Positions 2,385-58,743 of a DNA stretch of 64,000 nt are shown piece after piece. The notes beneath the pieces were generated by a model. That model did not search any database. It was not told where the DNA came from and was given only the letters and a program-made list of their open reading frames with translations. How positions within the stretch are numbered: position 1 is the stretch's first letter; each line of letters opens with the position of its first letter. The DNA is taken from the NCBI RefSeq assembly GCF_014252955.1, contig NZ_JACMIA010000001.1, forward strand, positions 4,238,258 through 4,302,257, given 5' to 3'. Position numbers and translations under genes: made by a program. This DNA comes from Stappia sp. 28M-7. GTDB taxonomy: Bacteria; Pseudomonadota; Alphaproteobacteria; Rhizobiales; Stappiaceae.

Positions 2385-2409
2385 CTTCTGCGCCCCTTGA
2401 ATTGAGCTC

Positions 2410-2868
2410 TCAGCCCTCGACGGGCGTCACCACCAGCGTGCTGCCATCGACCCCGACGACACGGATGCGCGTGCCGGCCGGGCAATCGGGCCCGCTCACC
2501 CGCCAGACGCTGTCGTCGAACCGGACCGAGCCCTGCCCGCCGGAGATCGGCGCGGCCAGCACGAATTCGCGACCCACCATGCGCGCCCCGCGCTGGTTGA
2601 GCCCGGCCTCATCGCCCTCGCTGCCCTGCCGGCGCATGTAGAGGCGCCCGACAACCACGGCGATCACCGACAGCAGCCCGAACAGCACGATTTCCAGCTG
2701 CCAGGGCATTTCGACCAGGATCGCCAGCGTGCCGACGACGATGGCGGCAAGGCCGAACCACAGGAAGAACGTGCCCGGCGCCAGAACCTCGAGGCCGAGC
2801 AGGAGCAGACCGCCGATCCACCAGATCCACGGGCCCAGCTCCATCACCAGACGCTCGATCATGGTCAT
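2410..2868 (-). CDS. NfeD-like membrane protein with C-terminal OB-fold
   Basis: 152 residues. The N-terminal half holds about three hydrophobic helices (about 10-30, 32-50 and 55-73, including [17 protein letters not shown]). The C-terminal half (about 88-152) is a soluble beta-rich segment with [12 protein letters not shown] typical of the NfeD OB-fold. NfeD proteins partner with SPFH/stomatin proteins in detergent-resistant membrane patches. Here the start overlaps the stop of the SPFH gene by four bases (ATGA at 2868-2865), so the two are translationally coupled. The biochemical role of this short, protease-less NfeD class is not firmly known; quality control or organisation of membrane proteins is the usual proposal. 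Confidence 0.9.
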
Positions 2869-3869: not shown

Positions 3870-4036
3870 CTTGCGTCACCTTCACCAAGGCCGCACTGCC
3901 GTGCGGCGGAACGGATTGCAGGCCGGTCGCGCGCAACCGGACGGCCCGCCGCTACATGTACCCGGCGAGCCGCGATCTGCAAGCGCAAGCGGCATGCAAT
4001 GGTGAAGAAGAGCGCCCCGAGGACGCGGCAAACGGC

Positions 4037-5125: not shown

Positions 5126-5395
5126 CTGGCTCCCGATCACATTCCGGTCCGGCTGAGCGGCACATAAGGCGCAAAAGCCGGGTCGTCCATATCCTAGTCG
5201 TTTCTACGCAGCCAAGTCGAAGAGGGTTCACCCGAATGCGCGACAGGCTGACGCAGGCGGGCAATTGCTCCGGACTTGGGCGCTGTTAACGGTCCTTTCA
5301 AAACAGATCGTCAAAATTGTCGATATTACCAAGGCTTGGCCGTTGCTTCCGGTTGCAGGAAGCGCGCCTGCACGCCGCCACCGGGACGAATTTCA

Positions 5396-5899
5396 GTGAA
5401 GAACGAGAAGATCCTCCTCGTGGAGGACAGCGCATTCACCCGCCGGCTGCTGCGCGGCATGCTGAAGGACCTCGGTTTCCATGCCGTCACCGAGGCAGCC
5501 GATGGCATGGAGGCGGAGCAGCTCCTGAAGCTGCACCGCTTCGACGTCATGCTGATCGACTGGCGCATGCCGCGCCAGGACGGCGCGGAGTTCCTGACCA
5601 AGCTGCGTGCGCACGACAATTCCGTGACCGCGTCCACCCCGGCGATCATCATCAGCGCGCATGTCGATCTTGTCTTGCTGCAAAGGGCGGCAACGCTCGG
5701 CGCCCAGTCGGTGGTGGTGAAGCCGTTCTCGCTGCAGATCCTGAAATCGCATCTCGACGCCGCGTTGGGGCGCCCCATCGACCGGGCATTGCCCGCTGCA
5801 AGACCCGACGCGAAGCCGGCCGCGCTGCCCGATCCCGCTGCCATCGCGGAGCCGGGCCCTGCCGCGGACGACGACCTCTACGAGATCGTCTATCTCTAG
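5396..5899 (+). CDS. Single-domain response regulator (CheY-like receiver with extension)
   Basis: 167 residues from GTG 5396. The receiver domain (about 4-125) has the acidic pair in LLVEDS (E10-D11), the phospho-acceptor D55 in VMLIDWRMPRQDG and the conserved lysine in VVVKPFS (about 105). After it is a 40-residue Ala/Pro-rich tail ending in DDDLYEIVYL, with no output domain. Such proteins act by protein contact or phosphotransfer. No kinase is adjacent, and the upstream 255 bp (5141-5395) hold only promoter-like sequence. An in-frame GTG-less extension upstream to 5276 has no homology-like features. The partner kinase and the pathway are unknown. Confidence 0.85.
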   Translation: MKNEKILLVEDSAFTRRLLRGMLKDLGFHAVTEAADGMEAEQLLKLHRFDVMLIDWRMPRQDGAEFLTKLRAHDNSVTASTPAIIISAHVDLVLLQRAATLGAQSVVVKPFSLQILKSHLDAALGRPIDRALPAARPDAKPAALPDPAAIAEPGPAADDDLYEIVYL

Positions 5900-5924
5900 G
5901 CTTGCGGTCTTGTAAGGAAGGCGC

Positions 5925-6377
5925 TCACTCGCCGCGATAACGCTCGGCGACGCGGAACCAGAATTCGACGATCGTGTGCAGGACCTCGCTCATGCCGGCA
6001 AGGCTGTCGGCCTTGGTGACGACGGCATTGGCGCCGGCCGCATAGGCCCGGCGAATCGTCACCGGATCATCGGCCGTGGTGAAGACGCAGACCGGGACCG
6101 CGCTGAGCCGGGCATGCTGGCGCAGCTTGCCGAGAAACTCCGTTCCCGTCATCACCGGCAGGTTGAGGTCGAGCAGAATGAGGTCCGGCGCGGCAGAACC
6201 GGCCGCCGCAGCGCGGTTGAGATGGTCGAGCGCCTCGGCGCCGTCCGAGGCGACTTCAAGGCGGACAGGCACGCTGGACGCCTTCAGCGACTGACGGATG
6301 ATGACGACGTCGTCCGGATCGTCCTCGACCAGCAACACGAAAGCGCCGTCGGCAGCCTTCTCCGCTTCATCCTGCAT
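5925..6377 (-). CDS. Single-domain response regulator, Rcp1-like
   Basis: 150 residues from ATG 6377; ATG 6422 or 6470 would add an unconserved leader. The receiver domain shows FVLLVEDDPDDVVIIRQSL, a pattern of the Rcp1/phytochrome-kinase-associated group. The phospho-acceptor is D70 in LILLDLNLPVMTG and the lysine is K122 in AVVTKADS. There is no DNA-binding domain. It is convergent with the other orphan receiver gene, with only 25 bases between stops. Rcp1-type receivers usually accept phosphate from bacteriophytochromes or related PAS/GAF kinases, but none is encoded here. Confidence 0.82.
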   Translation of the reverse strand: MQDEAEKAADGAFVLLVEDDPDDVVIIRQSLKASSVPVRLEVASDGAEALDHLNRAAAAGSAAPDLILLDLNLPVMTGTEFLGKLRQHARLSAVPVCVFTTADDPVTIRRAYAAGANAVVTKADSLAGMSEVLHTIVEFWFRVAERYRGE

Positions 6378-6525
6378 GGTATCGCTCGTCCGCACCTGAG
6401 GCCGTCCGCCGGCCATCGCCATCGGGTCCCGCACAACCGGGGTCCTCTTGCATAGGCCAGGGCGTTGCAACTGCGCAAGGGGCGAGGACGCCGGCAGACG
6501 GGAGGCCGCCGTCGCCAGGGCTTGC

Positions 6526-7767
6526 TCAGGCTTCGTAGTTGCGCTCGTCGGCGATCACCTTGCCGTCGTTCGGCAGGGCGCCGGGCAGCACCCGCTCGAC
6601 CCGGCCCGACAGCTTGGTCACCTCGCGCAAGGTGGCGGAAATCGCCTGATCGAGGCCGTCGCCATGCGTTTCGGCCTCGTAGGCCAGACGCATCACGTCC
6701 TGCTCCGCCTGCCGCTCGACGATGAGCCGGGCGCGGGTGATCTCAGGATGCCGGCCGAGCAGTTCGGAAATCTGCTTGGGATCGACGAACATGCCCTTGA
6801 TCTTGGTGCGCTGGTCGGCGCGGCCCATCCAGCCCTTGAGCCGCATGTTGGTGCGCCCGCACGGAGAGCGGCCCGGCAGCACGGCCGACAGGTCGCCCGT
6901 GCCGAACCGGATCAACGGATAGGCCCGGTTGAAATTGGTGATCACGACCTCGCCGACCTCGCCCTCCGGCACCGGCACCCCGGAGCCCGGACGAACGATC
7001 TCGACGATCACGTCCTCGTTGACAATCATGCCCTGGTCGGCGGCCGCCTCGTAGGCGATGACGCCGGCATCGGCCGTCGCATAGGCCTGCAGCACCTCGA
7101 TGCCGCGCTCACGGTATTCCGCCCGCAGGCTGGGGAACAGCGCGCCGCCGGACACCAGCCCCCGCCGCAGCGATGAGGCATCGCGGCCGAGTTCCGCCGC
7201 CTTGTCGAGGAGGATCTTCAGATAGTCGGGCGTGCCGGCATATCCGCTCGGACGCAGGGTGGCGATGGCCTCGACCTGCATCTCGGTATTGCCGACGCCG
7301 GCGGGAAACACCGCGCAGCCGAGGGCCCGCGCGCCGTGATCGAGAATGAAGCCGCCCGGCGTCAGGTGGTAGGACAGAGCGTTGTGGACGATGTCGCCCG
7401 CCCGAAAGCCGGCGGCAAAGAAGGCGCGCGCCGCCGACCAGGGATCCGCCTCGCCCCCCTGCGGCTCCCAGATCGGACCGGGCGACATGAAGATGCGCCC
7501 CATGGCCGACAGCGGCGCGGTGGCGAAGCCGCCGAAGGGCGGGGTCTGCGCCTGGGCTGCCATCAGATCCGGCTTGCGCAGCACCGGCAGACGGGCGAGC
7601 GCTGCCCGGTCGACGAGCGAGGCCGGGTCGTATCCCTCAAGGTGGCTGGCCCAGCCGGGCGCCTTCGCCATCGCATCGGCCACATGGGCGGGAAGCCGCG
7701 CGAAGAGATCGGCGTCCCGTTCACCCGGCTCGCGGATCTCCAGGTTGTCGAAATGCTCTGCGCTCAT
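6526..7767 (-). CDS. Phenylacetate-CoA-ligase-like adenylate-forming protein, unusual ATP loop
   Basis: 413 residues with the PaaK-family fold. The middle region has the GTPDYLKILLDKA stretch and the GGALFPSLRAEYRERG segment. The hinge motif YPLIRFGTGDLS is present, as is the C-terminal domain RTKIKGMFVDPKQISELL. Family enzymes join an aromatic or related acid to CoA using ATP. The Ser/Thr/Gly-rich ATP loop (SSGTTGKP in PaaK) is replaced at about residues 95-103 by SPGPIWEPQ, so ATP handling may differ or be lost. It is the last gene of the LIV-type ABC operon, 112 bp after livF. A small hairpin (CGAAAGG/CCTTTCG, 7797-7815) lies in that gap. Family placement is confident; substrate and activity are not. 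Confidence 0.8.
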   Translation of the reverse strand: MSAEHFDNLEIREPGERDADLFARLPAHVADAMAKAPGWASHLEGYDPASLVDRAALARLPVLRKPDLMAAQAQTPPFGGFATAPLSAMGRIFMSPGPIWEPQGGEADPWSAARAFFAAGFRAGDIVHNALSYHLTPGGFILDHGARALGCAVFPAGVGNTEMQVEAIATLRPSGYAGTPDYLKILLDKAAELGRDASSLRRGLVSGGALFPSLRAEYRERGIEVLQAYATADAGVIAYEAAADQGMIVNEDVIVEIVRPGSGVPVPEGEVGEVVITNFNRAYPLIRFGTGDLSAVLPGRSPCGRTNMRLKGWMGRADQRTKIKGMFVDPKQISELLGRHPEITRARLIVERQAEQDVMRLAYEAETHGDGLDQAISATLREVTKLSGRVERVLPGALPNDGKVIADERNYEA

Positions 7768-7879
7768 GTCGCGCTCCTCGTGAATTCCTGGCCGGGCGAA
7801 AGGATGGACCTTTCGCGTCTCCGTCGCCGGGCTGTCCGCCCCGCTTCGGCCTGCTGCTTTGACTGGACGCGGTGCCGGC

Positions 7880-8716
7880 TCAGGCGAGCCAGCGCTTGCG
7901 GCGCTTGTAGTGCTTCACGTTCCGGAACGACTTGCGCCCCTCGCCGCCGACGCCAAGGTAGAATTCCTTCACGTCCTCGTTCTCGCGCAGCGCCTTGGCG
8001 GCGCCGTCGAGCACGATGCGGCCCGATTCCATGATGTAGCCGTAGGTGGCGTAGCGCAGGGCGACGTTGGTGTTCTGCTCGGCAAGCAGGAAGGACACGC
8101 CCTCCTTCTCGTTGAGCTCCTTGACGATCTCGAAGATCTCCTCGACGAGCTGCGGGGCAAGGCCCATGGACGGCTCGTCGAGCAGGATCATGTTCGGCTT
8201 GCTCATCAACGCGCGGCCGATGGCGCACATCTGCTGCTCGCCGCCGGACGTGTAGCCGGCCTGGCTGCTGCGCCGCTCGCGCAGGCGCGGGAAATAGGCA
8301 TAGACCTTCTCGAGGCTCGCCTTGACGGCGGCATCGCCGTCGCGCCGGGTGAAGGCGCCGGTCAGAAGGTTCTCCTCGATGGTCAGGTGGCCGAAGCAGT
8401 GGCGGCCTTCCATGACCTGGATGCAGCCGCGGCGCACCAGGTCGCTCGGCGACAACGCCTGCACCTGCTCGCCCTTGAAGACGATGTTGCCCTTGGTCAC
8501 GTCGCCGCGTTCGGCCTGCAGAAGGTTCGACACGGCCTTCAGCGTCGTGGTCTTGCCGGCGCCGTTGGCGCCCAGCAGGGCGACGATGCCGCCTTCCGGC
8601 ACGGTCAGCGAAACGCCCTTCAGCACCAGGATGACGTGGTTGTAGATCACCTCGATGTTGTTCACAGCGAGGATGGTCGAAGCGGACGTCTCGGTCTGCC
8701 GTGCATTGGCGTCCAT
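7880..8716 (-). CDS. livF: LIV-type ABC transporter ATP-binding protein (LivF)
   Basis: 278 residues; one of two cytoplasmic ATPases of the importer. Walker A GANGAGKTT is at about residues 49-57, a signature variant is TSGGEQQM, and Walker B is MILLDEPSMGL followed by the LivF-typical APQLVEEIF. The C-terminus carries a basic tail (KHYKRRKRWLA). It is separated from the binding-protein gene upstream by 120 bp holding a hairpin. Together with LivG, LivH, LivM and the binding protein it makes a complete transporter; the substrate is not readable from the ATPase. Confidence 0.95.
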   Translation of the reverse strand: MDANARQTETSASTILAVNNIEVIYNHVILVLKGVSLTVPEGGIVALLGANGAGKTTTLKAVSNLLQAERGDVTKGNIVFKGEQVQALSPSDLVRRGCIQVMEGRHCFGHLTIEENLLTGAFTRRDGDAAVKASLEKVYAYFPRLRERRSSQAGYTSGGEQQMCAIGRALMSKPNMILLDEPSMGLAPQLVEEIFEIVKELNEKEGVSFLLAEQNTNVALRYATYGYIMESGRIVLDGAAKALRENEDVKEFYLGVGGEGRKSFRNVKHYKRRKRWLA

Positions 8717-8787
8717 GTCACTCTTCCGGCGCTAGGCGTTGGGCGGTCCGGTCCGGGCGAATGAGGCGCGGGCCGGCGGATCTAGTG

Positions 8788-8814
8788 CCGGTCCGCAGCC
8801 TCGCCGCGGACCGG
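8788..8814 (-). terminator. Hairpin between the binding-protein gene and livF (possible attenuator)
   Basis: Perfect 9-bp stem CCGGTCCGC (8788-8796) / GCGGACCGG (8806-8814) with a 9-base loop, starting 22 bases past the binding-protein stop. No T-run follows on the minus strand. It is therefore better read as an mRNA-stabilising or attenuating structure than as a full terminator. Confidence 0.5.
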
Positions 8815-8836
8815 ATGTTTCTCGAGACTGCCTGGC

Positions 8837-10159
8837 TCAGTTGGCCGGGCAGGCGTCCTCACGCGTCGGCCACGGGGCGTTCGACGTCGCGTAGTCCTTC
8901 GAGGCCTGCATCAGGATCGGCGTGACCTCTTCGGTCATCGGCGAGAACCAGTCGGTCGCCGGGGTCCACTTCTCGCCATCCCATTCCTGGATGAACAGCG
9001 AGTGGTGACCGGAGTGGTTGGCGCAGGTGATCTCGATCGGCGCGATCATGCCCTTCAGGCCGATGGCCTCCAGACGTGCCTCGTCGATCTTCAGGTTCTC
9101 AAGGCCGACGCGCATGTCCTCGGCGTTGATCACCTTCTTGCCGGTCATCTCCTGCGCGGTGCGGATCGCCTCGACCATGTAGACCGCGTTGACGACGCCG
9201 CGGTTGTAGAGGTTCTCGCCCACCGTGCTCGCCGGGGTGCTCGACTTGCCCGCATCCACGACCAGCTTCTTGATGTCCTGCAGCGCCGGGTAGTCGGCAC
9301 CGACATTGTTGAAGCTGACGGACTTGTAGCCCTTGGCGCCCGCGCCGCCGGCCCGTGCGTCCTCATCGCCGCCGGCCCACCACACGCCGATGAACTTCGA
9401 CATGTCGAACCGGTTCTTCACCGCTTCCTTGATGGCGGTCGGGTTCATGGCGCCCCAGCCCCACATCACGACATAGTCGGGACGATCGCGGCGGATGGAC
9501 AGCCACTGCGACGACTGGTTCTGCATCTCCTTGCCCGGGACCGGGTACTGCAGCACCTCGAAGCCGTACTTCTGGGCAAGGTTCTCGAGCAGCGGGATCG
9601 GCTCGCGGCCGTAGCCGGCGTCAAGGAAGATGTAGCCGATCTTCTTGCCCTTGAGGCCTTCCATGCCCCCTTCCTGCTCGCCGATATACTTGATGATCGC
9701 CGACAGGCCGTCCCAGTACGTGTCCGGCGGATTGAACACCCACGGGAAGGTGTTGCCATCGGCCGCGGCGGACAGGCCATAGGCCATCGACAGGACCGGG
9801 ATCTTGTCGACCGACGACTTGGGGATCACCTGCAGGGTAATGCCCGTCGACCAGGGGTTGAACACCAGCGTGTTCTTCGCCTTGGCCTGCTCGTAGCACT
9901 CCACGCCCTTCTGCGTGTCATAGCCGGTCTCGCACTCGTCGAAGGCGATCTTGACACCGTTCACGCCGCCGTCGCGCTCGTTGATCATCGCCAGGTAGTC
10001 GGACATGCCGTTGGCGATGTGGATCCCCGAGCCGGCATAAGGGCCGGTCCGGTAGGTCGGAAGCTGGATGTAGACGGAGTCCTCGGCGAGAGCCGGGGCG
10101 GCGAAGGACGCCGCCAGGCCCAACAGGACCGATCCCGCCAGGAGAGTTTTCATTCGCAT
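8837..10159 (-). CDS. livK: LIV-type ABC transporter periplasmic substrate-binding protein
   Basis: 440 residues from ATG 10159, which has a strong GGGAGG 8-12 bases upstream. The frame is open for another 256 codons upstream, but that stretch lies inside livM and is not coding. Residues 1-25 (ending APALA) are a Sec signal peptide; the mature protein opens EDSVYIQLPTYRTGPYAG. The rest is the two-lobed periplasmic binding fold (YGREPIPLLENLAQKYGFEVL is the lobe-2 segment). Members of this HAAT subfamily near acyl-CoA ligases are thought to bind aromatic or branched carboxylates rather than amino acids. That is inference from the two ligase genes in the operon. Confidence 0.92.
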   Translation of the reverse strand: MRMKTLLAGSVLLGLAASFAAPALAEDSVYIQLPTYRTGPYAGSGIHIANGMSDYLAMINERDGGVNGVKIAFDECETGYDTQKGVECYEQAKAKNTLVFNPWSTGITLQVIPKSSVDKIPVLSMAYGLSAAADGNTFPWVFNPPDTYWDGLSAIIKYIGEQEGGMEGLKGKKIGYIFLDAGYGREPIPLLENLAQKYGFEVLQYPVPGKEMQNQSSQWLSIRRDRPDYVVMWGWGAMNPTAIKEAVKNRFDMSKFIGVWWAGGDEDARAGGAGAKGYKSVSFNNVGADYPALQDIKKLVVDAGKSSTPASTVGENLYNRGVVNAVYMVEAIRTAQEMTGKKVINAEDMRVGLENLKIDEARLEAIGLKGMIAPIEITCANHSGHHSLFIQEWDGEKWTPATDWFSPMTEEVTPILMQASKDYATSNAPWPTREDACPAN

Positions 10160-43156: not shown

Positions 43157-43747
43157 TCACCACCGCGCGAGCTTGCGTTTCACTTTTTCAAGATAGCGCC
43201 TGCGGCTGTCATCCGTGGAGGTATCCATCTTGTAGTGGGCAAGATAGCGGACACGGCAGCGCGGATGGCAAAGCGCCCGGATGCCGCGCAACACGGTCTT
43301 GCGACCCGGCTCGCCGATTATCTTGGAGATCAGCCAGGACGCGCCGCAGGTCGTGACCACCGCGATCTTGCGGATATGCTGCATGCGTGGCCGCGTGCCG
43401 GTGGTCTCGGTCGGGATATCGAAGGTGACATGGGGGATCCAGACCCGGTCCAGATATCCCTTGAGCATCGCAGGAAGCCCGTACCACCAGGTCGGGTAGA
43501 CGAAGACCAGCGCCTCCGCCCACAGGATGTCGTCGACATGTTCGGCGACCGGGTCCCGGTTGACCGCCGGATCGGCATAGCGCCGCCACTCACCCTCCTG
43601 CATCACGGGATCGAAGCCGCGGGCATAAAGATCGGTAAGCCGCGTCTCGTGGCCGGCGGCGCGGAGCGTTTCCATCACCGTCCGGCAAAGGGACGCGGAA
43701 AAGCTGTCCGAGGCGGGATGGCAGAAGATCACCAGGACGCGCATCAA
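43157..43747 (-). CDS. Flavodoxin-fold NAD(P)H oxidoreductase, copy 2
   Basis: 196 residues of the NAD(P)H dehydrogenase (quinone)/KefF-like family. The phosphate loop is VIFCHPASDSFSASL. The flavin-contact region is LVFVYPTWWYGLPAMLKGYLDR, where the PxWWY and KGYxDR elements are family hallmarks. VTTCGASW is the third FMN loop. These enzymes use FMN or FAD to reduce quinones or azo/nitro compounds. The gene overlaps the previous paralogue by four bases (ATGA) and ends the operon. Sequence identity with its neighbour is plain along the whole length, so this is a tandem duplication that has diverged. Confidence 0.88.
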   Translation of the reverse strand: MMRVLVIFCHPASDSFSASLCRTVMETLRAAGHETRLTDLYARGFDPVMQEGEWRRYADPAVNRDPVAEHVDDILWAEALVFVYPTWWYGLPAMLKGYLDRVWIPHVTFDIPTETTGTRPRMQHIRKIAVVTTCGASWLISKIIGEPGRKTVLRGIRALCHPRCRVRYLAHYKMDTSTDDSRRRYLEKVKRKLARW

Positions 43748-44325
43748 AGCCTCTTAAGTTCTGCAGTCACGCGCGCGACGAAGGCCTTGCGCCCGGCCTC
43801 GTCGATCCGGTTCATGTCATAGAGCGCCAGATAGGACAGCCGCCCGGTCGGCGCGATGAGCGCCCGCAGCACCCGGCGGACCAGCTTGCGCGGCGGATCC
43901 CCGACGAGGCAGGCGCGAAGCCGGCTGCCGCCATAGGTGGTCACTGCGACGAGCCGGCGGATGTGCTGGAGATTTGGCACGACCTTGCCGTCACGCATGC
44001 GGAAGGAAACCCCGGGCAGGAAGACACGGTCGAAATAGCCCTTCAGGATCGCCGGGAAGCCGAAGTTCCAGACCGGATAGACAAGGACGATCGCCTCCGC
44101 CCGCATCAGCTGCTCGACATACTCCGCCACCGGTTCGCGATTGCGTTCGACGTCGTGATAGGCGAGCCGCTCTTCCCGGCTGAGCACCGGGTCGAAGCCC
44201 CTGGCGTAGAGATCGCATTCCTCGACCGAATGGCCCGCCGCCACGAGCACTCGCAAGACCTCGTTCTTCAGCGCGGTGGAGAAGCTTTCCTCCACCGGAT
44301 GCGCATGGATGAGGAGCACGCGCAA
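43744..44325 (-). CDS. Flavodoxin-fold NAD(P)H oxidoreductase, copy 1
   Basis: 193 residues, paralogous to the next gene. Flavin-binding segments are LLIHAHPVEESFSTAL, IVLVYPVWNFGFPAILKGYFDRVF and VAVTTYGGSRL. The copies share ECDLYARGFDPVLSREE / DLYARGFDPVMQEGE and differ in the flavin-contact aromatic residues (WNF versus WWY). Ten bases separate it from the FAD-linked oxidase stop. Its position in the operon suggests reduction of an oxidised intermediate or supply of reduced flavin. Confidence 0.88.
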   Translation of the reverse strand: MRVLLIHAHPVEESFSTALKNEVLRVLVAAGHSVEECDLYARGFDPVLSREERLAYHDVERNREPVAEYVEQLMRAEAIVLVYPVWNFGFPAILKGYFDRVFLPGVSFRMRDGKVVPNLQHIRRLVAVTTYGGSRLRACLVGDPPRKLVRRVLRALIAPTGRLSYLALYDMNRIDEAGRKAFVARVTAELKRL

Positions 44326-44335
44326 GGCTGAAGAC

Positions 44336-45736
44336 CTATCGCGCCAGACCGGGGAACAGGAAGGTCTGCTCGGCCGAGAAGTCGAAGTCCGGGTTCTCCC
44401 AGGCGATCATCTTGCCCGGATTGAGCAGGCCCTTGGGGTCGGCCTCGCCCTTGAAGGCGAGCTGAACCGCATCGGTCTGCTTCATGCCGCCCTCTTCCAG
44501 CGTGTAGCGATGCGGATTGAAGATCGGGCAGCCGAGATCCTCGTGGATGCGGATGATCTCGTTGAGACGCTCCTCGGTCGTGTAGCGCACCACCGGCAGG
44601 CCGAAGCAGGTGATCTTGCCGTCGAAACGGACGAATTCCAGGTGGCCCGGCACCTCGTCGCCGAGCATCTCCGAAAGCTTCACCGCCTTCTGCACATGGT
44701 CGGGGAAGGGATAGAGCACCTGCAGGTAGGTGATGGTCGGGTCGACCCTGAGACCGCGCAGCGTCGTGTGGTTCCAGGTCAGCTCATAGACCGGCGGCAG
44801 TCCCTTGCTCTCCTCCTCGCTCGCCAGGTCCGAGCGGTAGACGAAGTCCGCCCCTTTCTGGCGCCGGGTGAAGGCATCGAACGCGTCCATCGCGAAGGGC
44901 GCCACCATGAGCGCGCACACGGACTGGTCCGACCGCAGGAACTTGCGGTGCCGCAGGAAGTAGTCGTGCGGCAGCGGCGCGGCGATCGGCGCGATCTCCT
45001 TGGTCAGGATGCCGTCCTGATTGGCAACCGCGTCGGCGTAGCGTGCCGCGCCTGCGAAATCGTCGAAGCCGACGAGAACGTCGACCCAGTCGTAGGCCGC
45101 CGTCAGCGGCACGGTGACTTCGGTGATGATGCCATTGGTGCCGTAGGCATGGCTGACCTTGTGCATGTCCTCGCCGGACAGCGTCAGCACTCGCGGCTCG
45201 GCCTCCATCGTCACCACCTTCAGCGAGATGATGTTGCCGAAGTCCCGCAGTCCGCCCCAGTTGATCGATCCGACGCCGCCGGACCCGCCGGCAATGAAGC
45301 CGCCGATGGTTGCCGTCCGGTAGGTGGACGGGTGCATCCGCAGTTCCTGACCCGTGGAACGTACGGCCTCGTCGATGGCGTACATGATCGCGCCGGCCTC
45401 GGCCCGCACGAAACCGCGACCGGTCTCCAGCACCTGGTTCATCTCGGCAAGGCTGAGCACGACGCCGCCGGACAGCGGCATTGCCTGGCCATAATTGCCG
45501 GTCCCGGCGCCGCGCGTCGTCACCGGAATATTCAACTCGTAGCAGGCCTTCAGGACGCGGATGACATCCTCCTGGCTGCGGGCACTGACGACGATGTCGG
45601 CGGTAACGTCCTCGAGCTGGCGCTTGAGAACGGGCGAATACCAGAAGAAGTCGCGGCTCTTCTGCCGCACGATCTGCGGATTGTCCTCGATCGCCAGACC
45701 CTCCAGGGCGGTCTTGAGCGCGGCGATGTCATGCAT
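44336..45736 (-). CDS. FAD-linked oxidase / FAD-FMN dehydrogenase (VAO/GlcD family)
   Basis: 466 residues. The FAD-binding PCMH domain (about 40-220) has TADIVVSARSQEDVIRVLKAC, the pyrophosphate loop PVTTRGAGTGNYGQAMPLSGG, and ATIGGFIAGGSGGVGSINWGG. The C-terminal half contains the substrate domain; the last residues DPKGLLNPGKMI are typical of glycolate/D-lactate-type oxidases. There is no signal peptide or obvious covalent-flavin histidine. It follows the deaminase-like gene by three bases. The substrate is unknown; oxidation of a hydroxylated or CH-NH intermediate is plausible. Confidence 0.9.
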   Translation of the reverse strand: MHDIAALKTALEGLAIEDNPQIVRQKSRDFFWYSPVLKRQLEDVTADIVVSARSQEDVIRVLKACYELNIPVTTRGAGTGNYGQAMPLSGGVVLSLAEMNQVLETGRGFVRAEAGAIMYAIDEAVRSTGQELRMHPSTYRTATIGGFIAGGSGGVGSINWGGLRDFGNIISLKVVTMEAEPRVLTLSGEDMHKVSHAYGTNGIITEVTVPLTAAYDWVDVLVGFDDFAGAARYADAVANQDGILTKEIAPIAAPLPHDYFLRHRKFLRSDQSVCALMVAPFAMDAFDAFTRRQKGADFVYRSDLASEEESKGLPPVYELTWNHTTLRGLRVDPTITYLQVLYPFPDHVQKAVKLSEMLGDEVPGHLEFVRFDGKITCFGLPVVRYTTEERLNEIIRIHEDLGCPIFNPHRYTLEEGGMKQTDAVQLAFKGEADPKGLLNPGKMIAWENPDFDFSAEQTFLFPGLAR

Positions 45737-51018: not shown

Positions 51019-52362
51019 ATGCGCATGTGGATCAAGGACCCGCTCGCAATCCTTGCCGACAATGCCGCCCGCGGCATCGTGGTGGAGGAGGGACGCATCG
51101 CCGAATGCGTGCCGGCCGGGCAGGAGCCGTCGAGCCCGGTGGACACCACCTACGACGCCTCTTCCGAAGTGGTCATCCCCGGGCTCATCAACACCCACCA
51201 CCATTTCTTCCAGACGCTGACCCGGGCCCATCCCAGCGCCATCAACAAGGAGCTGTTTCCCTGGCTCCAGGCGCTCTACCCGATCTGGGCCAGAAACGTC
51301 ACGCCGGAGACCTTCCGGCTCGGCACGCGTCTCGCCCTCACCGAGTTGCTGATGTCGGGCTGCACCGCCGCCTCGGACCATCACTATCTCTTTCCCGCCG
51401 GGCTCGAGAACGCGATGGATATCCAGGTGGAAGAGGCAACGCGTCTCGGCATCCGCATGACGGTGACGCGCGGCTCGATGAATCTCAGCCAGAAGGATGG
51501 CGGCCTGCCCCCCGACACGGCCGTGCAGGACGAGGACACGATCCTTGCCGACTGCGAGCGGGTGCTGTCGCGCTATCACGACACGTCAGAAGGCGCGATG
51601 ATCCAGGTGGCTCTTGCCCCTTGCGCGCCCTTCACCGTCACCAAGCGGCTGATGCGCGAGAGCGTCACCCTGGCCGAGCGCTTCGACTGTCGCCTGCACA
51701 CGCATCTCGGCGAGACCATCGACGAGGACGATTACTGCCTGCACCATTTCCAGTGCCGCCCCGTCGACTATCTCGAGGAATGCGGATGGCTCAACGAGCG
51801 TGTCTGGCTGGCCCACGGCATCCATTTCAACGATGACGAGGTACGGCGTCTCGGCCATGCCTGCGTCGGCGTCTGCCATTGCCCGACGTCCAACATGACG
51901 CTGGCCTCCGGTCAGTGTCGGACGAAGGAGCTGGAAGCGGCGGGCTGTCCGGTGGGCCTCGGCGTCGACGGCTCGGCCTCCAACGACAATTCCAATCTGA
52001 TGGAGAGCCTGCGCCACGCCTTGATGATCAACCGGCTGACCTACGACGCGGCCTCGGTAACCCATTTCGACACCTACCGCTGGGCGACGGAAGGATCGGC
52101 GCGCTGCCTCGGCCGCAAGGACCTGGGCGCCATCGCCGTCGGCAAGCAGGCGGACCTTGCCTTTTACCGGCTCGACGAGCTTCGCTTTTCCGGTGCCGGC
52201 GATCCGCTTGCCGCGCTGATCCTGTGCGGTGCCCACAGCGCGAACCGCGTGATGGTGGCCGGAGACTGGAAAGTGATCGACGCTCGCCCCGTGCACATGG
52301 ACATCGAACGCCTGCGCGCCGAGCACGGCGCTGCTGCAAAGCGCTTCCTGGAAGCACTTTGA
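51019..52362 (+). CDS. 8-oxoguanine deaminase / TrzN-AtzA-type amidohydrolase
   Basis: 447 residues from ATG 51019. Metal-site motifs: NTHHHFFQTLTRAHP, LHTHLGET (the glutamate is the acid/base), WLAHGIHF and GLGVDGSASNDNSNLMES. LFPWLQALYPIWA matches the bacterial 8-oxoguanine deaminase branch, which also includes hydroxyatrazine-type hydrolases. It would release ammonia from an amino-purine or -triazine ring. A 178-bp gap separates it from RidA. Whether the true substrate is 8-oxoguanine, guanine or another azaheterocycle cannot be decided here. Confidence 0.9.
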   Translation: MRMWIKDPLAILADNAARGIVVEEGRIAECVPAGQEPSSPVDTTYDASSEVVIPGLINTHHHFFQTLTRAHPSAINKELFPWLQALYPIWARNVTPETFRLGTRLALTELLMSGCTAASDHHYLFPAGLENAMDIQVEEATRLGIRMTVTRGSMNLSQKDGGLPPDTAVQDEDTILADCERVLSRYHDTSEGAMIQVALAPCAPFTVTKRLMRESVTLAERFDCRLHTHLGETIDEDDYCLHHFQCRPVDYLEECGWLNERVWLAHGIHFNDDEVRRLGHACVGVCHCPTSNMTLASGQCRTKELEAAGCPVGLGVDGSASNDNSNLMESLRHALMINRLTYDAASVTHFDTYRWATEGSARCLGRKDLGAIAVGKQADLAFYRLDELRFSGAGDPLAALILCGAHSANRVMVAGDWKVIDARPVHMDIERLRAEHGAAAKRFLEAL

Positions 52363-52394
52363 CGACCGGCTCCGCAGGCCCACATCACAGGAGG

Positions 52395-52419
52395 CCGGGC
52401 TCCCCGCCCGGTCCTTTTC
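52395..52419 (+). terminator. Terminator after the 8-oxoguanine-deaminase-like gene
   Basis: CCGGGC (52395-52400), TCCCC loop, GCCCGG (52406-52411), then TCCTTTTC. It lies 33 bases after the stop. The creatininase gene follows 57 bp later, so it may be a partial stop or attenuator within the operon. Confidence 0.7.
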
Positions 52420-52475
52420 GCCTTCGGCCCTGACTTCGCAAGAAGAGGCCGCAACGCCAACGAGAGCTGCAAAAC

Positions 52476-53291
52476 ATGACAGACCTGCCCCGCCGCTTCT
52501 GGCACGAGATGACCGCCTTCGACTTTGCCAACGCCGACACCTCGTCGTGGGTCGCGGTGCTGCCCGTGGCGGCGATCGAGCAGCATGGCCCTCACCTGCC
52601 TGTGTTCACCGACACCTGCATCGCCGAGGGCCAGATCTCGCGGGTGCTGGAACTTTTGCCGCGCGACGTGCCGGCAACGTTCCTGCCCGTTCAGGCCGTC
52701 GGTAAGTCCAACGAGCACATCTCCTCGCCGGGCACGCTGACGCTGTCGTGGGAAACGGCGACCCGTGCCTGGGTCGAGATCGGCGAAAGCGTGTTTCGCG
52801 CCGGCGTGCGCAAGCTTGTCCTGGTCACCTCGCATGGCGGCAACGTGCCCTTGATCGACATCGTTGCCCGCGAGCTGCGTGTGAAGCATGACATGCTGGT
52901 CACCGCGACCGGCTGGTCACGTTTCGGTCAGCCGCACGGCATCTTCCCGGACAAGGAATTCACCTACGGCATCCATGGCGGTGACGTCGAGACATCGCTG
53001 ATGCTGTATCTGCGCCCGGATCTGGTCGACATGCGCAAGGCGGAGGATTTCCGCTCCACCCAGCTCGACTTCCTGCGCGAATTCAAGCACCTGCGCGGCC
53101 ACGGCCCGGCCCAGTTCGGCTGGAAGGCCCAGGACCTCAATCCGGCAGGAACGGTGGGCAATGCAGCTGCGGCCAACGCTGCCAAGGGCGAAGCCTCGCT
53201 CGATCATGCCGCGCGCGGCTTCGTCGATCTGCTCAAGGACATGCACGCCTTCGACCTCGACCGGCTGTGGAAGCCGGACGGCGACGCCTGA
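52476..53291 (+). CDS. Creatininase-family amidohydrolase
   Basis: 271 residues. Metal ligands of the family are visible: Glu and His in PVAAIEQHGPHLPVFTDT, Asp in the same stretch, His in LVTSHGGNVPLID and Glu in GGDVETSLML. Members include creatinine amidohydrolase, formamide-pyrimidine deformylase (ArfB) and MftE. They open cyclic amides or cleave formyl/peptide amides. The third metallo-hydrolase in this locus, after two amidohydrolases, it fits ring opening of a lactam formed by deamination. This role is inference. Confidence 0.9.
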   Translation: MTDLPRRFWHEMTAFDFANADTSSWVAVLPVAAIEQHGPHLPVFTDTCIAEGQISRVLELLPRDVPATFLPVQAVGKSNEHISSPGTLTLSWETATRAWVEIGESVFRAGVRKLVLVTSHGGNVPLIDIVARELRVKHDMLVTATGWSRFGQPHGIFPDKEFTYGIHGGDVETSLMLYLRPDLVDMRKAEDFRSTQLDFLREFKHLRGHGPAQFGWKAQDLNPAGTVGNAAAANAAKGEASLDHAARGFVDLLKDMHAFDLDRLWKPDGDA

Positions 53292-53301: not shown

Positions 53302-53649
53302 TCAGCGCAGCGTTGACCAGGACGCCGGATCGAACCCGATCAGCCAGCGGTCGCCATCGTGATAGATCGGCCGCTTGATCGCTGACGGGTTCTCCATGAG
53401 CACGGTGAGCGCTCCGGCCTCACCGGCCGCCTTGGCTTTCGTTTCGTCCGGCAGCTTGCGCCAGGTGGTGCCGCGCGTGTTGACCACGGCCTCCCATCCG
53501 AAAGCCTCGAAGAAGGACCGCAACAGGCCTTCGTCGACGCCGGCCTTCTTGTAGTCGTGAAAGGTGTAGGCGACGCCGTTTTCGTCGAGGAAACGGCGAG
53601 CCTTCTTCACCGTGTCGCAATTCGGTATACCGTAGAGCATGGCGGCCAT
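53302..53649 (-). CDS. ArsC/Spx-family thioredoxin-fold protein (YffB type)
   Basis: 115 residues from ATG 53649; ATG 53640 is possible. It opens LYGIPNCDTVKKARRFL with a single redox cysteine C11 (no CxxC). The rest (FGWEAVVNTRGTTWRKLPDE, NPSAIKRPI) is standard for YffB-type reductases. Arsenate reduction is unlikely; YffB is proposed to be glutathione-dependent. It is convergent with creatininase and divergent from the ferredoxin-cyclase gene, 142 bp away. Confidence 0.9.
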   Translation of the reverse strand: MAAMLYGIPNCDTVKKARRFLDENGVAYTFHDYKKAGVDEGLLRSFFEAFGWEAVVNTRGTTWRKLPDETKAKAAGEAGALTVLMENPSAIKRPIYHDGDRWLIGFDPASWSTLR

Positions 53650-53791
53650 GGTCAGGGTTCCTGACAGGAGGGGTTGGCGAGACATCGCCAAGGGTCGCCG
53701 CAGGATGGGCGACCGGCGCTTGCAACGTCAAGGCCGGGCCCGAAAGACGTGACCTTCCCGCAAGCTGCGGGACGAGCGGACGGCGGCTTGG

Positions 53792-55495
53792 ATGGCACAG
53801 AAGAAGACGTCCGCATCTGCGGACGGACAGGGAATCCGGCAGCGGCTCAGGCTGGGCAGCGGCCTTGTGCTGCTCGCCTTCGCGTTCAGCCACTTCCTCA
53901 ACCACATGCTCGGCATCTGGTCGATCGAGGCGATGGAGGCCGGACGGCAGGTATTTCTTGCCATCTGGCGCAGCCCGCCCGGCGAAATCCTGCTGCTCTC
54001 GGCCCTCTTGGTGCACATCGCACTCGCCCTGTGGAAGACTGCCCGCCGCCGCAGCCTTCGCCTTTCAGCCTGGCAGTGGGCGCAGCTCCTGCTCGGGCTG
54101 TCCATACCCTTCCTCCTGCTGCCCCATGCCATCGGCACCGGCGGGTTGGCTTATCGCTTCGGCTATGAGGACACCTACCGCAACGTGCTCACGGTCCTGT
54201 GGCCCGGCCTGATTTTCAACCAGACCGTCTTGATGCTGCTGGTCTGGCTGCACGGCATGATCGGGGTGCACTTCTGGCTCCGCCTGAAGCCCGGCTACGC
54301 ACCGTTCAAGCCGTTTCTGTTCGCCCTAGCGCTTCTCGTGCCCGTATTGGCGTCCTGGGGCTGGATCGACGCGGGCCGCCGACTGCGCCTGACGGAGAAC
54401 ACGCCGTTCCCCCTGACCCAGGAAATGACCTCCTGGTCCGATCCACTGGTCACCTTTTTGCGCAACGGCTTTTATGCACTGGTTGCGCTGGTCGTCGTCG
54501 TCATCGTCCTCAGGGCGCTTGTCCGCCGCTCGCGCCAGACTATCGAGATCACCTACCCGGGCGACCGGGTGGTGAAGGTCGCCCCCGGCCCGACATTGCT
54601 GGAAATCAGCAAGATGAACGGCATTCCCCATGCCGATGTCTGCGGCGGGCGCGCGCGCTGCTCGACATGCCGGACCCGCATTCTCGACGGGCTGGACACG
54701 CTGCCCGCCCCGTCCGCCACCGAAGCCAAGGTGCTGACCAGGATCAGCGCGGGCGAGGACATCCGCCTCGCCTGCCAAGTGCGGCCGGAAGCTCCCCTCA
54801 AGGTCCAGCCCCTGGTGCCGGCAAGCGGCGCTGTGCGGGTCGCCGGATCCGATGGCGATGCCTATCACTGGGGCGTGGAGCAGCCGGCGGCAATCCTGTT
54901 CATCGACCTGCGCAACTTCACGGGCCTTGCCGAAACCCGCCTTTCCTACGACGTCGTGTTCCTGCTCAACCGCTATCTTGGCGAGACCGCCCGCGCCATC
55001 GAAGCCTGCGGCGGCTATGTCGACAAGTTCATCGGCGACGGCGTGATGGCGATCTTCGGCATGAAGGACGGTCTGCAGGCCGGGTGCCGTAACGCCCTGG
55101 CAGCAACCAGTGCCATCGCGGAAACCATGGAGCGGCTGAATGTCGAACTCGGCCCGCAGCTCAGCGCGCCGCTGCGGGTCGGCATGGGCCTGCATGCCGG
55201 GCCGGTGATCCTCGGCCGCATCGGCGCGGTCAGCGGCAACGGTGCCAGCGGCCGCATCACCGCGCTCGGCGATGTCGTCAACATCGCCAGCCGGCTGGAG
55301 ACCGCAACGAAGGAACTGGGCCACAGTCTCGTCGTGTCGAGCGCCGTGCTGGAGGCTGCCGGCTACACCTGCGACCTGACGGGCAGAACGGAGATCGCGG
55401 TCAGAGGCCGACGCGAGCCGCTCGATGTTTTCGCTCTCGACCCGCCGGCGCACCTGGTCGATACTCTCGGCAAGTCGTCTCCTTCCCCCGCCTGA
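53792..55495 (+). CDS. Membrane haem-b/ferredoxin/adenylate cyclase fusion (redox-responsive class III cyclase)
   Basis: 567 residues in three parts. (1) Six predicted helices (about 22-40, 66-82, 96-112, 132-153, 174-192, 225-245) with histidines H34, H38, H75, H112, H154 and H160 placed as haem-b ligands, like an SdhC-type diheme anchor. (2) A plant-type [2Fe-2S] ferredoxin domain (about 250-342), with C284-x5-C290-x2-C293 and C328. (3) A class III cyclase domain (about 365-545). In it the metal Asp are D372 and D416 (IDLRNFTGL, DKFIGDG), the adenine-site Lys is K412, and D494 plus N497 and R501 are in GDVVNIASRLE. All catalytic residues are present, so it should make cAMP. Similar architecture is known for CyaC of Sinorhizobium meliloti, reported as quinone-responsive (recalled). 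Input ligand here is inference. Confidence 0.9.
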   Translation: MAQKKTSASADGQGIRQRLRLGSGLVLLAFAFSHFLNHMLGIWSIEAMEAGRQVFLAIWRSPPGEILLLSALLVHIALALWKTARRRSLRLSAWQWAQLLLGLSIPFLLLPHAIGTGGLAYRFGYEDTYRNVLTVLWPGLIFNQTVLMLLVWLHGMIGVHFWLRLKPGYAPFKPFLFALALLVPVLASWGWIDAGRRLRLTENTPFPLTQEMTSWSDPLVTFLRNGFYALVALVVVVIVLRALVRRSRQTIEITYPGDRVVKVAPGPTLLEISKMNGIPHADVCGGRARCSTCRTRILDGLDTLPAPSATEAKVLTRISAGEDIRLACQVRPEAPLKVQPLVPASGAVRVAGSDGDAYHWGVEQPAAILFIDLRNFTGLAETRLSYDVVFLLNRYLGETARAIEACGGYVDKFIGDGVMAIFGMKDGLQAGCRNALAATSAIAETMERLNVELGPQLSAPLRVGMGLHAGPVILGRIGAVSGNGASGRITALGDVVNIASRLETATKELGHSLVVSSAVLEAAGYTCDLTGRTEIAVRGRREPLDVFALDPPAHLVDTLGKSSPSPA

Positions 55496-55511
55496 TCAGG
55501 TCGTCCTCTCC

Positions 55512-56672
55512 ATGTCGCAACAGTATTCTTCCCAGGAAATGCTTGCTCGTCTCGTCGCCTTTCCGACGGTCTCTTCCAACAGCAACCTCGATCTCATCGA
55601 CTTCGTCGAAACCTATCTCGCCGGACATGGCATCGCATCGCAACGCGTGCCCGACGCCACCGGCGCCAAGGCCGCGCTTCATGCGGTGATCGGCCCGCAG
55701 AAGGACGGCGGCGTCGCCCTGTCGGCACATACCGACGTCGTGCCCGTCGAGGGACAAGCCTGGAGCAGCGACCCATTCGTCCTGCGCGAGGCGGACGGTC
55801 GGCTCTATGGCCGCGGCACCTGCGACATGAAGGGCTTTGCCGCCGTCGCACTGGCCGCCGTGCCGCAAATGGTCGCCGCCCCCCTGACCCGGCCGATCCA
55901 CATCGCCCTGTCCTATGACGAGGAACTGGGGTGCATCGGTGCCCCGCCGATGATCGATTCGATGCTGCGCAGCGGTCCCAAGCCCTCGATGGTGGTTGTC
56001 GGCGAGCCCAGCAACATGCGCGTCATCACCGCGCACAAGGGAACGGCGGTCATCCGCGTCACGGTTCGCGGCCACTCGGTTCACTCCAGCCAGTGGGATC
56101 GCGGCGTCTCGGCGATCGCCAACGCTGCCCGCATCATTTCCTGGCTGGACGATCGCACCCGCGAAAACCAGCGCGCCGCCGATCCGGCCCTTGCGATGGA
56201 TCCGCCCTTCACCACGCTCCATTGCGGCGTGATCGAGGGCGGCACGGCGGCCAATATCGTCTCGCGCTCCTGCTCGTTCTTCTGCGACATCCGCACCGTT
56301 CCCGGCGACACGCTGGAAGCCTGGCTGGAGCGGTTGGACGGCTTCATCCGCACGCAGATCGAGCCGGGCATGCACGCGATCCATCCGGACACCGGGGTCA
56401 GCGTGGAGAAGATCGCCTATGCCCCCGCTCTCAGCGAGGAGCAGGACGGTCCGGCCGAAGCGCTCGCCCGCCGTCTGACCGGCGACAACAGCCGCCAGAT
56501 GGTCGTCTACGGCACCGAGGCCGGCCAGTTCCAGGAACGGGGCATTTCCGCCGTCGTGTGCGGCCCGGGCTCCATCGACCAGGCCCACCAGCCGGACGAG
56601 TTCATCGAGAAAGCGGAGATCGCCGCGGCGGACAGGTTCGTTTCGCGGCTGATCGCCGACATGTGCCGCTAG
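55512..56672 (+). CDS. argE: M20 peptidase/deacylase, acetylornithine deacetylase (ArgE) family
   Basis: 386 residues from ATG 55512, 16 bp after the cyclase gene. Dizinc site: SAHTDVVPVEGQ, GRGTCDMKGF, SYDEELGCIG (catalytic Glu-Glu), VVGEPSNM and a C-terminal QAHQPDEF His. A lid/dimerisation domain inserts at about 180-290. ArgE deacylates N-acetylornithine. In alphaproteobacteria this M20 branch also includes N-acyl-amino-acid deacylases. Position before a peptide ABC operon favours a peptide or acyl-amino-acid catabolic role; argE cannot be excluded. Confidence 0.88.
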   Translation: MSQQYSSQEMLARLVAFPTVSSNSNLDLIDFVETYLAGHGIASQRVPDATGAKAALHAVIGPQKDGGVALSAHTDVVPVEGQAWSSDPFVLREADGRLYGRGTCDMKGFAAVALAAVPQMVAAPLTRPIHIALSYDEELGCIGAPPMIDSMLRSGPKPSMVVVGEPSNMRVITAHKGTAVIRVTVRGHSVHSSQWDRGVSAIANAARIISWLDDRTRENQRAADPALAMDPPFTTLHCGVIEGGTAANIVSRSCSFFCDIRTVPGDTLEAWLERLDGFIRTQIEPGMHAIHPDTGVSVEKIAYAPALSEEQDGPAEALARRLTGDNSRQMVVYGTEAGQFQERGISAVVCGPGSIDQAHQPDEFIEKAEIAAADRFVSRLIADMCR

Positions 56673-57159
56673 ACCGCCGACACGCAATTCCGTCGGAAAT
56701 GGCGCCCGGTCCGGCGCTGATCGCCAGAAGAGCCGCTTGGCCGGGACAGCGCCGGCCAAGCGGCCCGACGCCGCACCTCGACGGCGCGCGCTTTTTTGCG
56801 CTCCCCGCCCGTCTGCCCGAACAGCTTCGACATCGCGTTTCCCGCCGGAGCTGCGAGCCCCGCCCCTGCCAATTCGGATCACACCTGCCTGCGAGCCGAA
56901 CAGATAATCCACAGGCACCTGGCGCTTGCATGCGAGGATCTGGCGCGCGTTCCGCAAGGAACGGTGCGGAGACAGGACGGTCATTCCGTTACGTCATACG
57001 CCATTCCTCTCTTTCGCATCCAGCGCATGCTGGACTGTCGCTTTCGACATTGCTTAGATGCAGTCTGGTGATCCGCAAAAATGCGGCACATCGGGTCGGC
57101 GCCATCCGTTGAGGTCGGCGTCGGAGGAGCCCGAGACAACGATAAGTCATGAGGGGACT
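56673..57159. promoter_or_regulatory. Intergenic region before the peptide ABC operon, with large hairpin
   Basis: 487 bp with no gene. A perfect 12-bp hairpin CCGCTTGGCCGG (56733-56744) / CCGGCCAAGCGG (56752-56763) follows the ArgE stop. A separate T6 run lies at 56792-56797 after a GC-alternating stretch. A single DnaA-box-like TAATCCACA occurs at 56905-56913 and is not an origin. The promoter of the ABC operon should lie in the last 200 bp; no clear -35/-10 can be assigned. Confidence 0.5.
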
Positions 57160-58743
57160 ATGCGCATCAAATCGACAATAGCTGCGGCAGCACTCATCAC
57201 GTCGCTGCTGGGAACGGCTGCATCGGCAGAAACGCTCCGCTATGCCTTCCAGGGAACCCTGAACCAGCTCGATCCCTACTCCCTGAACGAGACCTTCACG
57301 CTTGGCACGCTCGGCAATGTCTACGAGGGTCTGACCCGGCGTGCTCCCGACCTCACGATCGAGCCCGGCCTGGCGGAGCGCTGGGAAATCCTTGAGCCGA
57401 CCCGCTGGCGCTTCTATCTGCGCAAAGGCGTCAAGTTCCACAACGGCAACGACTTCACGGCCGACGACGTGGTGTTCTCCGCCGAGCGCATCCGTTCCGA
57501 AGGCTCGGACCTCACAACGCGCATCGGCGCCGACGTGAAGGTCGAGAAGGTCGACGATCACACCGTCGACTTCGTGCTGACCGGCCCGAATCCCATTCTC
57601 CACTACGAGTGGGACACCTGGTACATCATGGACAAGGAATGGACCGAGGCGAACAACGCCGTGAAGGTCACCTCCGCGTCCGACACCGCGCCGAACTATG
57701 CCTCGCTGCACGCCAACGGCACGGGCTCCTACAAGCTCATCAGCCATGAGCCGGGCGTGAAGACCACGTTCGAGAAGAACGAGAACTGGTGGGACAAGGT
57801 CGCCGGCAACATCGACAAGGTCGAGTTCACGCCGATCGGCTCCGACGCGACCCGCGTCGCGGCGCTGCTGTCGGGCGAGCTCGACATGGTGTTCCCGATC
57901 CCGGTGCAGGACATCAAGCGCGTCGAGGACAGCCCGCAGACCAAGGCCCTCACCGGTCCGGAGCTGCGCACCATCTTCCTCGGCTTCGACCAGAAGCGCG
58001 ACGAGCTGCTCTATTCCAGCGTGAAGGGCAAGAACCCGTTCAAGGACGTGCGGGTCCGCAAAGCCTTCTACCAGGCCATCGACATGGACGCGATCCGCGA
58101 CAAGGTGATGCGCGGCCTGTCGACCCCGTCCGCCCTGCTGATCTCGCCGTTCCAGTACTCGCGGTCGGACGAGTTCAAGCGTCACCCGTATGATCCCGAG
58201 GCCTCCAAGGCCCTGCTCGCCGAGGCCGGCTATGCGGACGGCTTCTCGGTCGGCATGGACTGCCCGAACGATCGCTACGTCAACGACGAGGCGATCTGCC
58301 AGGCGGTTGCCTCCTTCCTTGCCCGCGTCGGCATCAAGGTGGATCTCAACGCCCAGCCCAAAGCGCAGTATTTCGCCAAGGTGCTGGCCTCGAACGGCTA
58401 CGACACCTCGTTCTACCTGCTCGGCTGGACCCCGGGTTCCTTCGACAGCTGGAACGTGCTGCACAACATCACCGGCTGCCGCGACGACAAGGGTAAGGGT
58501 GGCCCCTTCAACCTCGGCGGCTACTGCAATCCGAAGGTCGACGAGCTGGCAGCGCAGATTCTCGTCGAGAACGACGCGACCAAGCGCGACGAGCTGATTG
58601 CCCAGGCTTTCACCATCGTGCATGAGGACGTGTCCCACATCCCGCTGCACCAGCAGGCGCTGGCCTGGGGTGTCGCCGAGAACGTCGACGTCGTGCAGCG
58701 TGCGGACGACCAGTTCCACTATCGCTGGGTCGTCAAGAAGTAA
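57160..58743 (+). CDS. dppA: Peptide-type ABC substrate-binding protein (SBP_bac_5)
   Basis: 527 residues from ATG 57160, with GAGGGGA just upstream. The signal peptide ends TAASA before ETLRYAFQG. Family signatures: LTIEPGLAERWEILEPTRWRF, FHNGNDFTADDVVFSAERI and NVLHNITGCRDD in the ligand-facing lobe. The two-domain fold of the class C cluster (peptides, nickel, glutathione, oligosaccharides) spans the protein. SFDSWNVLHNITG is in the peptide-binding group. It delivers ligand to the following permeases; a stem-loop separates it from them. Confidence 0.93.
   Translation: MRIKSTIAAAALITSLLGTAASAETLRYAFQGTLNQLDPYSLNETFTLGTLGNVYEGLTRRAPDLTIEPGLAERWEILEPTRWRFYLRKGVKFHNGNDFTADDVVFSAERIRSEGSDLTTRIGADVKVEKVDDHTVDFVLTGPNPILHYEWDTWYIMDKEWTEANNAVKVTSASDTAPNYASLHANGTGSYKLISHEPGVKTTFEKNENWWDKVAGNIDKVEFTPIGSDATRVAALLSGELDMVFPIPVQDIKRVEDSPQTKALTGPELRTIFLGFDQKRDELLYSSVKGKNPFKDVRVRKAFYQAIDMDAIRDKVMRGLSTPSALLISPFQYSRSDEFKRHPYDPEASKALLAEAGYADGFSVGMDCPNDRYVNDEAICQAVASFLARVGIKVDLNAQPKAQYFAKVLASNGYDTSFYLLGWTPGSFDSWNVLHNITGCRDDKGKGGPFNLGGYCNPKVDELAAQILVENDATKRDELIAQAFTIVHEDVSHIPLHQQALAWGVAENVDVVQRADDQFHYRWVVKK

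Follow-up and report, generated by a model that had tools for sequence, protein, structure and literature searches.

The window examined here, a stretch of 64,000 nucleotides from Stappia sp. 28M-7 (contig NZ_JACMIA010000001.1, positions 4,238,258 to 4,302,257), was found to carry a gene for a CyaC-type class III adenylate cyclase, flanked by genes for a divergently transcribed reductase, a deacetylase-like enzyme and a peptide-type transporter (Table 1). The cyaC reading frame contains no internal stop, and its G+C content by codon position (0.66/0.48/0.84) has the composition of a real gene. In the encoded chain the Fer2 and Guanylate_cyc matches both exceed the Pfam gathering scores; the sole further Pfam match, to EACC1 at residues 196-264, falls below its cut-off (17.3 versus 23.6 bits), and residues 1-195 gave no Pfam match. 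Six hydrophobic stretches, at roughly residues 22-42, 62-84, 97-117, 140-163, 170-192 and 220-245, are helices in the anchor model described below. The preliminary description of this DNA had placed six such stretches, a [2Fe-2S] ferredoxin and a class III cyclase in one chain, which was confirmed by ORF, Pfam and hydropathy analysis, and every residue that it had named is present in the translated protein.

Table 1 Features of the cyaC locus of Stappia sp. 28M-7 and of six loci with a cyclase-less relative. Positions refer to the sequence named in the second column; residue numbers are those of the window CyaC protein.
Feature	Sequence	Position	Strand	Evidence
ArsC/Spx-family reductase gene, divergent	window	53302..53691	-	Pfam, NCBIfam
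CyaC-type class III adenylate cyclase, 567 aa	window	53792..55495	+	ORF, Pfam, S. meliloti CyaC identity
Six-helix membrane anchor, residues about 22-245, likely di-haem b	window	53855..54526	+	hydropathy, anchor model, Foldseek 2bs4_C
H34, likely distal-haem ligand	window	53891..53893	+	kept in 100/102 rows
H38, usual, not required ligand	window	53903..53905	+	94/102 rows; others Ala, Leu, Ile, Tyr or Arg
H75, likely proximal-haem ligand	window	54014..54016	+	kept in 101/102 rows
H112, likely distal-haem ligand	window	54125..54127	+	kept in 100/102 rows
H154, likely proximal-haem ligand	window	54251..54253	+	kept in 102/102 rows
[2Fe-2S] ferredoxin domain, residues 259-333; Cys 284, 290, 293, 328	window	54566..54790	+	Pfam PF00111 Fer2, E 9.6e-7
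Class III cyclase domain, residues 365-542; D372, K412, D416, T490, N497, R501	window	54884..55417	+	Pfam PF00211 Guanylate_cyc, E 3.4e-13; PDB cyclase matches
ArgE-like (acetylornithine deacetylase) M20 gene	window	55425..56672	+	NCBIfam PRK07522; family match from about 55512, just past the cyaC stop
Family 5 (peptide-type) solute-binding protein, first gene of transporter cluster	window	57058..58743	+	Pfam PF00496
Cyclase-less gene and MscS-family gene	L061 (genome G228)	1819-5321
Cyclase-less gene and MscS-family gene	L062 (genome G182)	1123-4310
Cyclase-less gene and MscS-family gene	L063 (genome G121)	3958-7046
Cyclase-less gene and MscS-family gene	L178 (genome G487)	1767-5095
Cyclase-less gene and MscS-family gene	L187 (genome G972)	5920-9008
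Cyclase-less gene and MscS-family gene	L188 (genome G769)	2714-6231

The ferredoxin region was also matched by TIGR01941, the profile for the ferredoxin part of NqrF (E 4.5e-13, below cut-off), and neither Pfam nor NCBIfam detected a flavin domain in the chain. The CyaC protein had ten matches in the genome (5.13 Mb, 11 contigs), nine of which cover the cyclase part only, and the anchor plus ferredoxin was matched once. A full-length AlphaFold2 model, built with 5 sequences, was poor (pLDDT 53.8) and was not used for geometry; the best 50 of its 609 Foldseek matches were cyclases or cyclase-like chains.

Matches to the protein were found in 53 of 61 genomes of the window's relatives, many through the ferredoxin part alone, in 117 of 397 genomes of the order at E up to 1e-20 and in 28 of 249 genomes of the phylum, while anchor-ferredoxin matches occurred in 112 of the 385 genomes of the class that were searched. 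The named relatives at 89-95% identity are Stappia. An alignment of 102 rows was assembled from the window, from loci of its relatives, order and phylum that represent only part of the matching genomes, and from named records; L100, one gene of the collection, contains a disrupting frame change, and its residue readings are uncertain. In a quick tree of these rows, with moderate supports, the window lies inside a supported set of 43 rows and CyaC of Sinorhizobium meliloti is on a different branch, in no starred set.

The cyclase site of the window protein is intact, with D, D, K, T, N and R all present. Among the 91 rows with both ferredoxin and cyclase, D372 and D416 are each kept in 90, R501 in 89, N497 in 86 and K412 in 72; T490, which was absent from the list in the preliminary description, is kept in 83. 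K412 and T490, the adenine pair of class IIIb, occur together in 72 of these rows. Elsewhere residue 412 is Q (12 rows), A (3), G (2), R (1) or S (1), and judging by this residue such proteins may use a different substrate or be inactive. The four cluster cysteines are kept in all 95 aligned rows that have the ferredoxin domain.

Conservation in the anchor is concentrated on a few positions. Only 10 of its 230 columns are kept in at least 100 of the 102 rows, and H34, H75, H112 and H154 are among them, so that this pattern is not due to chance; H75 and H154 are present in all 91 three-domain rows. Six histidines had been pointed out earlier as candidates for haem binding, and all six are indeed in the chain; the proposal stands for the four just named as likely ligands, whereas H38 is dispensable and H160, found in 60 of 102 rows, is not conserved. 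The question of the haem ligands is thereby narrowed to four residues that lend themselves to mutagenesis. A degenerate paralog (L070, 2755-4497) has H34, H38 and H112 replaced together, along with five of the six cyclase residues, and retains H75, H154 and the cluster cysteines. This joint loss is a single case; H112 alone is replaced in L068, and H38 alone in L071 and L113.

The anchor modelled alone reached pLDDT 72.8 and pTM 0.72. Of 294 Foldseek matches at E 10 or lower, all had E above 0.001. Within the best 50 of these 294, subunit C of the Wolinella fumarate reductase (2bs4_C, E 1.3) had both the top probability (0.84, the next being 0.28) and the top query-normalised TM-score (0.49, the next being 0.27). 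This protein, FrdC of the Wolinella succinogenes quinol:fumarate reductase, is a subunit of an enzyme and not a sensor, and it has five helices whereas the window anchor has six. Its four ligands alternate distal, proximal, distal, proximal along the chain, which is the order proposed for the window anchor. From the depth of the residues in their helices, their conservation and the FrdC match, the haem pairs H34-H112 and H75-H154 are proposed; by position in the helices, H75 and H154 would lie at similar depth toward the cytoplasm and H34 and H112 toward the periplasm.

Comparison of sequence profiles gave a negative result. With hhalign, 58 anchors aligned to the SdhC (30 sequences) and SdhD (31 sequences) of the order with probabilities of 1.2 and 0.1, and to the controls oppB, oppC and znuB with 0.1, 0.2 and 0.1. 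Pfam Sdh_cyt touched 3 of the 58 anchors (best E 0.0014), and a search of solved structures with the anchor profile gave only two irrelevant matches. TIGR02046 had no match in the window's own genome at E up to 1, and none in the 249 genomes of the phylum at E up to 1e-10.

The three-domain architecture has been described before, and the window protein is an ordinary representative of that published family. According to the available text of Beltz et al. 2016 (PMC4821796), an isolated cluster is made up by 30 class IIIb cyclases of alpha- and betaproteobacterial origin, one example being from Rhodopseudomonas palustris, and in it a ferredoxin sits between the membrane and catalytic domains; their anchors resemble cytochrome b of fumarate reductase and succinate dehydrogenase, with four spaced histidines, and two haems are predicted. 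With this ferredoxin cluster (1), of class IIIb cyclases with 6TM anchors, the window protein shares, as far as that text describes it, the position of the ferredoxin, the fumarate-reductase-like anchor and the four spaced intramembrane histidines, and nothing was seen that sets it apart from that cluster. For S. meliloti CyaC, the accessible part of Klein et al. 2023 (PMC10463352, citing Wissig 2019) states that two haem B are bound, that ubiquinone oxidises or reduces them and that quinone oxidation can activate the cyclase, and a figure legend in it marks a [2Fe-2S] cluster. The same protein is stated to be a dimer in the literature available in part. Di-haem regulation is described in the available portions of PMC9552081 and PMC13259868, and that of PMC12505454 merely lists the reference.

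Resemblance to CyaC of S. meliloti had been pointed out in the preliminary description, and the lead proved sound, both in the sequence and in the two b haems, [2Fe-2S] cluster and quinone control given by this literature. The annotated cyaC of S. meliloti AK57 (L057), which from its name and a neighbouring TetR gene is probably the counterpart of SMc01818, encodes a protein with 41% identity to the window protein over 550 aligned columns (E 8e-129), nearly end to end. It carries both Pfam domains, has the three domains in the same order and keeps H34, H38, H75, H112 and H154, all four cysteines and the D/K/D/T/N/R set; position 160 is Trp, in contrast to His in the window.

Gene order around cyaC was compared at 59 loci, 52 of which have a cyaC match, same-family loci with short flanks being outside this count. 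A divergent ArsC gene lies within 300 bases of cyaC at 12 of the 52, an ArgE-like gene follows on the same strand at 10, and a gene for a solute-binding protein lies downstream on the same strand at 15, comprising 14 of the 15 same-family loci and one locus of another family (L085). The ArsC, ArgE and peptide-transport genes thus travel with cyaC in the window's family. The arrangement gives a hint, and a hint only, of a functional connection between cyaC and ArsC or ArgE, as conserved order can reflect shared ancestry. Genes of the 8-oxoguanine deaminase type and of the creatininase family, upstream at 51019-53291, accompany cyaC in several relatives.

Within flanks of 4-8 kb and at the identity thresholds used, the records of S. 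meliloti, R. etli, Sinorhizobium RAC02, Azospirillum, Tistrella and Burkholderia showed none of the six genes sought next to cyaC. While the window cyaC stands beside the ArsC, ArgE and peptide-type transporter genes, that of S. meliloti neighbours pyrimidine genes and a RutR-type TetR gene, and in AK57 two transposase genes intervene. Homologs of these S. meliloti neighbours are grouped on another Stappia contig (L177, G000:C3:103000-121000) without cyaC, with identities over the aligned parts of 63% for the PreT-type protein, 81% for PreA, 56% for the CycR/RutR-type regulator, 75% for the Zn hydrolase and 86% for HydA; a second CycR-like gene (40%) adjoins the first. The window itself yielded none of the five. 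In the CyaC-CycR-Clr complex system, cycR precedes cyaC, an arrangement that is absent from the window. The best CycR homolog (52% identity) lies on that other contig in a cluster of the pyrimidine type, away from cyaC, and none was found in the window, so the Stappia genome does not share the cyaC-cycR linkage seen in S. meliloti.

The domain content of the relatives was surveyed with 68 anchor frames, taken from loci of at least 7,900 bases and the window; L177 and L179 were left out, and shorter loci such as L191 and L192, whose short frames end near a contig edge, lie outside the survey. Both ferredoxin and cyclase follow the anchor in 53 frames, 8 have a ferredoxin with no cyclase in the same frame, and 7 are anchor-only, one of these being a fragment of the broken L100. 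L189 (4697-6429) and L190 (4845-6520) were considered as cyclase-less and rejected, as in both the anchor-ferredoxin frame is followed just downstream by a cyclase in another frame, which points to a split gene or a frame change.

Six of the relatives examined have the ferredoxin but lack a cyclase (Table 1), and in all six a gene for an MscS-family channel directly follows the anchor-ferredoxin gene. Such a gene occurs within 3 kb of 2 of the 53 cyclase-bearing relatives, directly downstream in L012 and upstream on the other strand in L094. Pfam confirmed four of these channel genes, and the remaining two were recognised through similarity to those four. All six anchor-ferredoxin genes end in ATGA or GTGA, which is the form of a 4-base overlap. 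H38 is absent in all six, as it is in the cyclase-bearing L071, L113 and L193. The six cases are not independent events, because L061 and L062 are closely related and those four cyclase-less sequences that are in the tree group in a single supported clade, where one has a long branch. L187 and L188 were picked out by the shortness of their frames when the first four served as queries; their channel genes were not part of that query. A literature search for a pair of sensor and channel found nothing relevant, and these side variants with the sensor beside an ion-channel gene may be new.

Very probably, the Stappia member of the CyaC family is a membrane-bound adenylate cyclase of class III, and the redox state of the quinone pool is what switches it. 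As judged from the conserved ligands and the fold match, two b haems would lie between helices 1-4 of a bundle of the fumarate-reductase type, one bound by H34 and H112 on the periplasmic side and the other by H75 and H154 on the cytoplasmic side. Quinone would oxidise or reduce these haems, and the change in their redox state would pass to the cytoplasmic [2Fe-2S] domain and so set the activity of a homodimeric cyclase; this relay through the cluster, the direction of the switch and its targets are what we infer for Stappia. The cyclase would convert ATP to cAMP for regulators of the Crp/Clr type. HTH_Crp_2 had 21 matches in the genome, 9 of them over the cut-off, and regulators of the Crp/Fnr type are therefore likely to be present in Stappia. 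A gene for a Crp/Fnr regulator divergently adjoins the cyclase gene in the named records of Azospirillum and Tistrella, which fits an output through cAMP.

Redox conditions in the cytoplasm, sensed by the [2Fe-2S] cluster, might instead be what mainly sets the cyclase, the haems and quinone doing no more than resetting the cluster as a source or sink of electrons. The strict retention of the cluster cysteines (95/95) and the place of the ferredoxin directly between membrane part and cyclase speak for this, yet the four anchor ligands are conserved almost as strictly and S. meliloti CyaC is stated, in the accessible part of PMC10463352, to respond via haem B and ubiquinone; we regard it as unlikely. 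A different role for the same two domains, that of a small electron-transfer enzyme of the quinone:ferredoxin type that works with some partner and has its turnover reported by the cyclase, would accord with the TIGR01941 match, with the retention of anchor and ferredoxin in relatives without the cyclase, and with two flavodoxin-fold reductase-type genes and an FAD-binding gene at 43157-45736 on the reverse strand, about 8-10 kb upstream of cyaC. These flavin genes, however, are outside the neighbourhood whose conservation was examined, the immediate neighbours of cyaC are of the ArsC and ArgE types, and the chain itself is without a detected flavin domain, which makes such an enzyme highly improbable.

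Bicarbonate is a signal for other class IIIb cyclases, and K412 and T490 of the window protein are of the class IIIb type. A signal such as this could then set the cyclase, with the membrane part as a plain anchor, but the near-invariant intramembrane histidines would be left without a role, and the probability of this explanation is close to negligible. Read as a cyclase switched by the quinone pool, the window CyaC extends a characterised redox-to-cAMP switch to Stappia, within a family that is common in the class.

The 4-base overlap with the MscS-family gene in all six cyclase-less relatives suggests a channel that is opened or closed by the redox state of the membrane. Tentatively, and with slightly less than an even chance of being right, the di-haem anchor and [2Fe-2S] ferredoxin can be viewed as an interchangeable input cassette for quinone redox state, of which the cyclase is just one output. 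If so, one redox input would drive ion channels in some bacteria, and respiration and membrane permeability would be coupled in a way of a new kind.

The anchor also occurs without either partner domain. Loci L064-L069, from six genomes of one genus and forming one clade, have neither ferredoxin nor cyclase. At L064-L067 and L069 the anchor gene follows or overlaps a COG0523 (CobW) gene in a zinc-uptake cluster of the znuABC type, and at L068 only ABC-type genes were recognised near it. CobW, ZnuA, ABC-3 and ATPase matches were obtained on proteins of L065 and L069, and at L064, L066, L067 and L069 the COG0523 gene was read from a similar start sequence. A remote anchor-like protein (L130 / L179, 3744-4787; frame of 367 residues, E 9.2e-8) has Gln in place of H75 and no Pfam match. 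Among viral contigs, one fragment matches the ferredoxin-cyclase part.
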